Source: a virus. From it: a stretch of DNA of 24,692 nt. Position numbers and translations under genes: made by a program. The notes beneath the pieces were generated by a model. It saw only the letters and a list, made by a program, of their open reading frames with translations, was not told where the DNA came from and did no database searches. How positions within the stretch are numbered: the first letter of the stretch is position 1; every line of letters starts with the position of its first letter. The stretch covers positions 1-24,692 of the IMG/VR virus record IMGVR_UViG_3300022200_005065, one strand, 5' to 3'. Shown here piece after piece: positions 21,564 to 23,420 of this stretch.

Positions 21564-22493
21564 TTACTTGGTTACGTCAGCGTTGGTGATACCCCACACG
21601 CGAGACGCAGCGCGTCCGTGCATGACAGCCAATGAAACGAGCCATTCTACGCGTGTGCGATAGACTGGACGATCATCAAGTTCACCAAGGTCCGTTACTT
21701 CCATAACACCGTTCTGGATGCCCTGAACACGATCTGTGCCCATGTTAACAACATACATTGATGTTGATACTGCACCACCGGCTGGACCAGCTTCATTGAA
21801 ATCAATGATTTTTGCGCCTGTGTCGTCATAGTCAACCGCGATGTACGGAAGGCCATTATACAAAGGAACACGCTTGCCGAAATCGTCCATAGCGTAATCG
21901 ATATCACCACCAACGCCCTGACGAGCAGCAGTGTTAAGTTTACGCCACATATCTTTCGAACCGATAATGTGTGTTGCACCATCAACTTCATCGATAGCTT
22001 TATCCAAAGCTTCCAATGACAACGGGCTGTTCGCGCTTGGTGCGGTCAAAAGAGCAGTGATCAACTGGTTACCAGTGATACGTGCACGAAGACCATCAAA
22101 TTCACGCGGGTCAGTTGTGCTGTCGCCGTTGATGATTTTTCCAGTGATGTTAAGAGCAAGTGCCTTAACTTTCATTGCTTCCTGAGAAGAACGAACTTGC
22201 TCACCGCGAGTTTTGATCATAGCCTTATCGACGTCAAGATCACCACCTGCAATACGCAGAACTTCTGTTTCAGGATTGATAACACCCGTTGATTCTGTGT
22301 AGCTCTCGTTATAGCCACGGAATGCGACGCCCGGTAGGGTGCCTTCGCGGTTATAGCTCAACGAACCACCAAGAATATCTTCAAACGGCAAAGCCGCCAA
22401 AAGAGGTGAGTTTGCTGCGAACATTTCAATCACGGCTGATCGTTTTACATCACCGGAATTGAGCTTGCTTGCTTCCATTAGCGTAAGAGGCAT
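21564..22493 (-). CDS. Major capsid protein
   Basis: A 309-residue protein, the likely major head subunit with HK97 fold. Support comes from position (after scaffold, before cement), length, and sequence traits: a helical N-arm, the AFRGYNESYTESTGVINPET stretch expected for an extended E-loop, a DVDKAMIKTRGEQVRSSQEA helix, the NGDSTTDPREFDGL core, and a C-terminal R-V-E-W-L-V-S-L-A strand common in this capsid group. ATG 22493 has AGGAGA nine bases upstream. The leader contains an unusual pseudoknot-like fold, and a hairpin follows the stop, both fitting a gene needing high or tuned output. Confidence 0.9.
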   Translation of the reverse strand: MPLTLMEASKLNSGDVKRSAVIEMFAANSPLLAALPFEDILGGSLSYNREGTLPGVAFRGYNESYTESTGVINPETEVLRIAGGDLDVDKAMIKTRGEQVRSSQEAMKVKALALNITGKIINGDSTTDPREFDGLRARITGNQLITALLTAPSANSPLSLEALDKAIDEVDGATHIIGSKDMWRKLNTAARQGVGGDIDYAMDDFGKRVPLYNGLPYIAVDYDDTGAKIIDFNEAGPAGGAVSTSMYVVNMGTDRVQGIQNGVMEVTDLGELDDRPVYRTRVEWLVSLAVMHGRAASRVWGITNADVTK

Positions 22494-22522: not shown

Positions 22523-22606
22523 CTGGTGGGCTTTTTAAGCTCTTACCCCCGGTAAGGTTTAGGGTTATCCCTAGAATGAGGCACTGCCCACCAGACAATT
22601 GCCTCA
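22523..22606 (-). promoter_or_regulatory. Candidate H-type pseudoknot RNA in the major capsid leader
   Basis: On the minus strand TGAGGCA (22606..22600) pairs with TGCCTCA (22583..22577), and CTGGTGGGC (22594..22586) with GCCCACCAG (22531..22523). Both helices are perfect (7 and 9 bp) and they cross. Loops are 5 bases, 2 bases and a long loop holding two further perfect hairpins, TAGGG/CCCTA and CTTACC/GGTAAG. The element lies between the scaffold stop and the capsid ribosome site, ending 14 bases before AGGAGA. No U tract follows, so it is not a plain terminator. Similar pseudoknots act as translational operators (for example T4 gene 32); that role is inferred here. Confidence 0.7.
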
Positions 22607-22625: not shown

Positions 22626-23420
22626 CTAGGCTACTTTTCCCTTCAGTGCTTGGTTCGCGAACGCTAGGCGCTGTTGAGCCGGCAACTTCTGGAATTCTTC
22701 TTGGCTCATTCCGTTAGGGTATTTATTATTCCCATCAGAACCACCAGCACCGCCACCTGTGTTACCTTTGAAGAAGTGCGGAGCAGCTTTCTTCAGAGTG
22801 GTAACCCATTCATCGGCTGTCATTGGTGTAGCCCCGTCGGAGCCATACATAACGACATTTTCGTCTTTCATTGCCACCACTTCGCCTTTTTCATTCACTT
22901 TGAATGTTGAGCGAGCGCGGGACAAAATATCTGGAAGGGCGGATGGATTAACACCACTTTCTTCCTTCAACACGGCGTCGGTGATATGACGATCAACAAC
23001 AGTGTTAGCGTATTTCTTTTTACCATCATGCACTTCGGCAGTGAGGGTCTTGTTCTTGTTTTCAGCTTCAATGAGTTGAGCTTCGAGTTGCTCTTTCATT
23101 TGCTTAACCCGGTTGTCCACTTCCTTCTCAATGTCGTCGCTCTTTTTGAGCTTTCCGTCACTGACTTGTTGGGCGGTCCTACGCAGGGCTTCTAATTCGG
23201 TCTTGAAGTTGTCGGCATCTTCGCCAATCAATCCAGACAATTGTGTGTTCGTGGCCTTCAGGGTGTCGCGTTCTTCAGCTAGTGCGATATTGTTATCGCG
23301 GAATTCATCGAGCTTCGCTTTTGGAACGACGTTGACTTCCCATTTGTCACCGTTTTGTTTAGCAGAGTCTTCCAGACCTTCTGGAATTTCGTCTTTCGAC
23401 GCAAAAGTTAATACAGGCAT
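22626..23420 (-). CDS. Head scaffolding protein
   Basis: A 264-residue, strongly charged, mostly helical protein directly upstream of the major capsid gene, the usual place for a scaffold. A short N-terminal beta segment (VLTFASKDEIPEGL) is followed by a long coiled coil at about residues 35-135, a middle region and a C-terminal helix-turn-helix after a Gly-rich linker (QEEFQKLPAQQRLAFANQAL). The basic or mixed C-terminal helices of scaffolds typically bind the capsid protein. ATG 23420; its ribosome site lies in a small hairpin. A protease is not visible here, so the scaffold may be expelled instead of cleaved. Confidence 0.82.
   Translation of the reverse strand: MPVLTFASKDEIPEGLEDSAKQNGDKWEVNVVPKAKLDEFRDNNIALAEERDTLKATNTQLSGLIGEDADNFKTELEALRRTAQQVSDGKLKKSDDIEKEVDNRVKQMKEQLEAQLIEAENKNKTLTAEVHDGKKKYANTVVDRHITDAVLKEESGVNPSALPDILSRARSTFKVNEKGEVVAMKDENVVMYGSDGATPMTADEWVTTLKKAAPHFFKGNTGGGAGGSDGNNKYPNGMSQEEFQKLPAQQRLAFANQALKGKVA

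Follow-up and report, generated by a model that had tools for sequence, protein, structure and literature searches.

The leader between the scaffold and capsid genes

Does the gap in front of the major capsid gene of this virus encode a structured RNA and, if so, what could this RNA do for capsid synthesis? In the window, by which we mean the whole 24,692-base stretch of the virus record that was analysed, the major capsid gene follows a scaffold gene on the minus strand, with 132 nt between the two. The scaffold gene (22626..23420, minus strand) matches PHROG 206 (E 6.6e-41), a head scaffolding family, and scores 33.8 with the Pfam model Phage_scaffold, just under the 35-bit cut-off. The major capsid gene (21564..22493, minus strand), which would be the gene under control, matches PHROG 212 (E 1.5e-83), annotated as major head protein, and the Pfam model GP7 above the cut-off. 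Its AUG at 22493 is preceded by the Shine-Dalgarno sequence AGGAG at 22507-22503, which is predicted to be mostly unpaired (unpaired probability 0.64). The initial annotation had placed a pseudoknot-like RNA between scaffold and capsid genes and near the capsid ribosome site, and these gene assignments hold.

An H-type pseudoknot can be read directly from the minus strand between 22606 and 22523, where perfect 7-bp and 9-bp helices cross and two hairpins are enclosed. The 5' strand of stem S1, UGAGGCA (22600..22606), forms 7 bp with UGCCUCA (22577..22583). Loop L1, AUUGU (5 nt, 22595..22599), leads to the 5' strand of stem S2, CUGGUGGGC (22586..22594), which lies within the S1 loop and forms 9 bp with GCCCACCAG (22523..22531), thereby crossing S1. 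The two-nucleotide loop L2, AG (22584..22585), separates S2 from the 3' strand of S1, and the 45-nt loop L3 (22532..22576) contains both hairpins, all on the minus strand. Hairpin H1, UAGGG-AUAA-CCCUA (22560..22573, 5 bp), is also part of the MFE fold, and hairpin H2, CUUACC-GGG-GGUAAG (22542..22556, 6 bp, GGG triloop), is kept in L002, L057, and L212. Thus, every element that had been described, namely the 9-bp and 7-bp crossing helices in 84 bases, the loops of 5 and 2 bases, and the hairpins of 5 bp and 6 bp, is present. Two crossing helices, groove-spanning loops and a short junction characterise the H-type class, and the window sequence has them with loops of 5, 2, and 45 nt. The 3' end of the pseudoknot is 29 nt upstream of the capsid AUG.

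The pseudoknot exceeds chance expectation

The leader was shuffled 5000 times with its dinucleotides preserved, and no shuffle reached the score of the window pseudoknot (-37.2); the shuffles scored -15.1 on average and -33.6 at best. When both strands of the whole window were scanned for perfect Watson-Crick pseudoknots with S1 of at least 6 bp and S2 of at least 7 bp, only the one in the capsid leader and one weak 6+7 case were found, and shuffled windows gave zero to two per strand. The nested folding energy is unremarkable, with z-scores of -1.2 for the leader and -1.9 for the 84 bases. This is because RNAfold cannot count the crossing helix, and the MFE z-score was therefore dropped as evidence. 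According to a simple energy estimate, in which S2, H1, and H2 contribute -28.7, the stacking of S1 contributes -15.3, and the penalty for a pseudoknot is about +9.6, the pseudoknot is favoured over the nested minimum (-29.4) by approximately 5 kcal/mol.

The same topology recurs in related phages

Capsid homologues were gathered from IMG/VR, from GTDB genomes (three loci from a contig scan), and from named phages. The same topology, built from other letters, is found in the scaffold-capsid gaps of phiCbK, CcrColossus, Lacusarx, DSS3P8, RcXuper, and uncultivated phages. For example, two leaders read CCCGGC-UAAC-GGUCAGU-GCCGGG ... ACUGACC (L006) and GUGCGAC-CCAAC-GGGCUG-A-GUCGCAC ... CAGCCC (L009), while phiCbK (L191) has UCCCUCGGU-GACG-GCCGGUC-G-ACCGAGGGG ... 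GACCGGU and Erythrobacter phage XM05 (L190) has GCCCCGGC-UUU-GGUAGCCU-GUCGGGGU ... AGGCUACC. In Bambus (L189), S2 is formed by GGUGGUCG and CGACCACC.

Recurrence was tested with one leader per similarity cluster, and the 75 clusters include distant ones from outside the pseudoknot clade described below. The search was limited in geometry (L1 of 1-6 nt, L2 of 0-3 nt, L3 of up to 75 nt, and a position 12-75 nt before the start) and was compared with 300 shuffles for each leader. The p-value was at most 0.01 in 20 and at most 0.05 in 36 of the 75 clusters (Fisher combined p 2.5e-32). An earlier, looser search had given a combined value of 1.5e-36 over 61 clusters but picked wrong partners in some leaders (e.g. 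L005, L013, L068) and is superseded by the geometry-limited one, which also mispicks some leaders (e.g. L007, L203, L191), for which curated helices were substituted. With the identical procedure, p-values of at most 0.01 were obtained for 32% of the closer-relative leaders, 2% of the antisense leaders, and 0% of the coding controls, which were stretches of equal length within, or just past, the capsid gene start.

In the 35 curated leaders the median pseudoknot has an S1 of 7 bp, an L1 of 4 nt, an S2 of 7 bp, an L2 of 0 nt, and an L3 of 22 nt (range 8-63), and the distance from the end of S2 to the start codon has a median of 33 nt (range 20-52). S2 mostly comprises about 7-9 bp, and L2 is usually limited to 0-2 nt. 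The distance from the scaffold stop to S1 is variable and covers 7-226 nt among the relatives. A pseudoknot promoting stop-codon readthrough or frameshifting was considered and rejected because of the spacing and the frame: in the window S1 starts 19 nt past the scaffold UAG instead of a few nt, the frame closes two codons later at a UGA, and the stop-to-S1 spacing varies widely among the relatives.

A separate observation concerns the annotation of phiCbK at L191 1901-1992. The annotated capsid start (JX100813, gene 68; GTG at L191:1908) falls within S1 of the pseudoknot. The true start is likely the ATG at L191:1992, which is preceded by the Shine-Dalgarno sequence AGAGGAGC, and the annotated one is probably a misannotation. 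The published phiCbK capsid peptides start at A50, and the N terminus of the Colossus capsid protein is 29 residues shorter (PMC3556154).

Compensatory changes and strand

Two groups of leaders could be aligned with plain MAFFT, using sequence only and without any fitting to the structure. In the XM05/Lacusarx group (A2, 16 leaders), 96% of the S2 cells are paired and five of eight pairs have changed on both sides in at least one sequence. An outer helix described below, P0, is 79.5% paired in the same group, with five of its seven pairs double-changed. The covariation score is 0.326 compared to 0.02-0.11 in all slid versions. In the phiCbK group (A3, eight leaders), S2 is 100% paired with four of seven pairs double-changed, and the score is 0.294 compared to 0.04-0.125 in slid versions. 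In both groups the signal collapses already at a slide by one column. S1 shows only one-sided changes and mismatches inside the two groups and is wholly different between them. The cells of S1 and S2 together contain 39 G-U pairs but only two A-C pairs, and the structure therefore belongs to the sense-strand RNA.

The initial annotation had proposed to look for compensatory changes in related phages. This check has now been run, and the pseudoknot has withstood it, with double-changed S2 pairs in both alignable groups. The helices of the window itself are not alignable base by base with those of any diverged relative. MAFFT misaligns the helices of a mixed group (A4) and those of the window together with L057, L212, and L002, and we do not claim covariation there. 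The covariation is thus found in sister groups and would extend to the window through the shared topology and position.

Complementarity that arose by chance and has no function would be consistent with the ordinary z-score of the nested fold. However, it is hard to reconcile with the shuffles, the coding and antisense controls, the compensatory changes in two groups, and the asymmetry of the G-U pairs. We regard it as practically negligible, and for the family it is effectively refuted.

Hairpins in loop 3 and an outer helix

The GGG-triloop hairpin found in L3 of the window recurs in the leaders of L057, L212, L002, L203, the phiCbK relatives, the Roseobacter phages, L027/L222, and L207. Capsid leaders contain 17 such hairpins compared to 0.59 expected and a maximum of three in 200 shuffles; the count partly reflects shared ancestry, although stems and closing pairs nevertheless differ between lineages. 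A pattern search for the GGG hairpin returned 18 loci, and the capsid leaders among them were only those already known. H1 was not found to recur among the relatives, and many of them have a bare L3. Of the layout described initially, the idea that the capsid leader contains a conserved RNA structure is strongly borne out by covariation and recurrence, but the two extra hairpins are not part of the general design.

A subset of the leaders contains an additional outer helix, P0, which is formed by the 5' end of the leader, just past the scaffold stop, and the sequence 3' of S2 around the capsid Shine-Dalgarno. It is significant in 14 of the 35 curated leaders (combined p 2.7e-12), and its 5' strand begins, in most cases, no more than about 25 nt from the scaffold stop. 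P0 covers the Shine-Dalgarno or the start codon in L006 (where it is formed by CUCCUUGUGUCG and CGACACAAGGAG), L014, L102, L186, L063, and others. The window leader has no significant P0 (p 0.45), and the phiCbK group is also without it. Because the Shine-Dalgarno of the window is in addition predicted to be mostly unpaired, occlusion is not the mechanism in the window.

Distribution and losses

Of the 35 leaders that we curated as containing the pseudoknot, 34 belong to one clade of 41 (support 100/96) in a tree built from 113 capsid proteins. The labels are our own curation, and some of the negative ones inside this clade are uncertain, for instance L065, which resembles L064, and L088 and L106, which both have pseudoknot-like pairings. 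In the neighbouring clade of 67 capsids, most gaps either measure less than 60 nt or contain other structures. Among the capsid relatives that differ from the window, L002/L003 is the nearest (78% identity); its gap measures 60 nt and contains no pseudoknot but retains the hairpin CUUGCC-GGG-GGUAAG, and L004 has a 47-nt gap with neither of the two. The pseudoknot can thus be lost, and the retention of the hairpin in L002/L003 suggests that it may have a role of its own.

Other leader structures were observed alongside. Distant capsid relatives without the pseudoknot have several leader hairpins with NGA triloops (GGA, UGA, CGA) closed by G-C or G-U pairs (L226, L227, L228, L229, L231, L235, L262, L267, L268, L087, L124, and L167; an example is gacagcgGGAugcuguc). 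Hairpins with GGA in the loop number 27 in these distant leaders compared to 5.7 expected. Binding sites of the CsrA/RsmA type were considered for the G-rich loops but are not invoked here, since the loops have three bases, GGG here and NGA in the other clade, and are not ANGGA hexaloops. In L021, L022, L023, L047, and L187 a conserved CGCUCC has two possible partners, a GGAGCG on its upstream side and a GGAGC on its downstream side, and would form a stem of the pseudoknot with the latter. This alternative pairing is a possible structure switch, in a sequence too conserved for a covariation test.

A second pseudoknot at the tail assembly chaperone

The gene of the tail assembly chaperone (14531-14100) is preceded by a second conserved leader pseudoknot, at 14586-14543 on the minus strand of the window. 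Its 11-bp stem is formed by 14586-14576 and 14566-14556, and the loop sequence UCGGGU (14572-14567) pairs with ACCCGA (14548-14543), which abuts the Shine-Dalgarno (all minus strand). Among the corresponding leaders of phiCbK, RcXuper, a Mesorhizobium phage, and others the stems are wholly different while the loop UCGGG is kept. The loop together with a CCCGA located 2-37 nt before the start is found in 11 of 15 tail-chaperone leaders compared to 0.08 expected. Seven of the leaders have a second CCCGA upstream of the hairpin, and these competing partners suggest mutually exclusive pairings that may constitute an RNA switch at the tail chaperone.

Comparison with known leader RNAs

The initial annotation knew of no described RNA family with such a layout in front of a capsid gene, and this agrees with our search of Rfam release 15. 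No family reached its gathering cut-off in the window, and 20 relatives gave only the tmRNA and tRNA genes of L064. At this locus (L064 1-927) of a phage contig, a permuted tmRNA-like gene and three tRNA genes precede the capsid gene by about 1-2 kb. Under permissive settings the leader gave, at best, an sRNA match on the opposite strand (E 0.16) and a miRNA match (E 5.4). The described motif Mu-gpT-DE (RF03012), which is presumably located upstream of the major head genes gpT of Mu-like phages, provides some precedent for structured RNA in front of a capsid gene. Mu-gpT-DE, which is named in PMC7657543, did not reach its gathering score in the window and the 20 relatives and is absent from the weak matches of the leader. 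A literature search for capsid-leader pseudoknots returned nothing relevant, and the phiCbK genome paper mentions none.

Leader pseudoknots as translational operators are known from other genes. The pseudoknot in the gene 32 leader of the phages T4, T2, and RB69 is an autogenous translational operator (PMC3014915, PMC535899), on which gp32 nucleates in T4 (PMC535899). The capsid-leader pseudoknot appears comparable to this operator, because both are of the H-type, are located tens of nucleotides upstream of the start, have a short junction, and leave the ribosome site open, and because the gene 32 pseudoknots of T4, T2, and RB69 likewise diverge in sequence while keeping their shape. However, the T4 pseudoknot comprises only about 28 nt and precedes the gene of a single-stranded DNA-binding protein, whereas the one described here has longer helices and a large L3 and precedes a capsid gene. 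In addition, the T4 leader contains repeats of the UUAA(A) type for the cooperative binding of gp32, of which the window sequence CGACUGAGGAACAAUAGGAGAACCAAAUU has none. In Escherichia coli rpsO, a ribosomal protein gene (S15), the leader pseudoknot extends into the ribosome site, where it traps the ribosome, while the capsid-leader pseudoknot instead ends 29 nt before the AUG. The rpsO pseudoknot is listed as part of a translational operator in PMC3014915. Thus, the leader pseudoknot is known as a kind, but the family, the gene that it precedes, and its breadth appear to be new.

Possible functions of the capsid-leader pseudoknot

The initial annotation had offered three candidate functions, namely an operator recognised by capsid or scaffold protein, RNase processing, and stabilisation of the mRNA. 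Judged by its conservation, the capsid-leader pseudoknot is very probably a real, previously undescribed control element for capsid protein synthesis. The pseudoknot is located just 5' of the position that an initiating ribosome would occupy, and we tentatively prefer the reading, which could well be correct, that it acts in cis on the translation of the capsid gene. It would then be a translational operator or an initiation-control element that determines the amount of capsid protein in relation to scaffold. The constant position upstream of the ribosome site and the helices that mask the Shine-Dalgarno in some relatives speak in favour of a translational role, and the tail chaperone pseudoknot adjoining its Shine-Dalgarno also points to translation. 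The control could be exerted in two ways. Either a phage or host protein binds to the pseudoknot, as gp32 of T4 does on its own leader, or, where P0 is present, capsid initiation may be coupled to the ribosomes that finish the scaffold gene. Since the shape of the helices but not their sequence is kept, recognition would probably involve the shape and a few loop bases, and the recurrent GGG-triloop hairpin of L3 is a candidate contact.

The second of these routes could also operate without any trans-acting factor. The leader would in this case block independent initiation or isolate the capsid site, and scaffold-terminating ribosomes would open it. Such translational coupling or insulation would agree with P0, which mostly starts near the scaffold stop and, in some of the leaders, engages the Shine-Dalgarno or the start codon. 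However, P0 reaches significance in no more than 14 of the 35 curated leaders and is absent from the window and the phiCbK group, and the part common to all is the pseudoknot, so that we consider coupling or insulation alone to be quite unlikely.

The main rival to translational control is a role in mRNA stability or processing. The polycistronic head transcript might be cleaved in the scaffold-capsid gap, and the pseudoknot at the new 5' end would block 5'-end-dependent RNases and thereby raise the level of capsid mRNA. RNase E or RNase J, the latter being present in many alphaproteobacteria, are candidates for such enzymes. The site directly past the scaffold stop and ahead of the most demanded product would be well placed for this purpose, a conservation of shape over sequence fits a mechanical block, and the ribosome site of the window is open. 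It does not explain, however, why P0 lies over the Shine-Dalgarno in relatives and why the tail-chaperone pseudoknot abuts the Shine-Dalgarno. A stability role is possible, although we regard it as the less probable explanation, and sequence alone cannot separate it from translational control.

A transcriptional element, such as an attenuator, a terminator or an antitermination RNA, might be expected from stable GC-rich stems in an intergenic position. But there is no U tract 3' of the window pseudoknot, as had been noted initially, the terminator scan has no entry at the leader, and the distance to the capsid start codon is constant, all of which makes this very unlikely. Even more improbable is a small-molecule riboswitch. 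H-type pseudoknots with an inserted hairpin do occur among riboswitches, but the groups of leaders share almost no core sequence, the context is that of structural genes, and Rfam gave no match.

Returning to translational control, the most far-reaching version would be that the capsid or scaffold protein itself binds a class of pseudoknots conserved in shape but variable in sequence in order to balance both proteins, in a large group of siphophages mainly of alphaproteobacteria, that the tail chaperone carries a second, separate switch, and that pseudoknots thus control a number of virion assembly genes. This version is speculative and, taken as a whole, unlikely to hold.

The capsid-leader pseudoknots represent an RNA class that has been missed by current libraries, and its weak sequence conservation is the probable reason. 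Phages have to produce capsid subunits in large numbers and in the right ratio to scaffold and portal, and little is known about how this ratio is set post-transcriptionally. The pseudoknot is kept across a capsid clade that includes phiCbK, a long-used Caulobacter phage, which makes the question testable with simple reporters.
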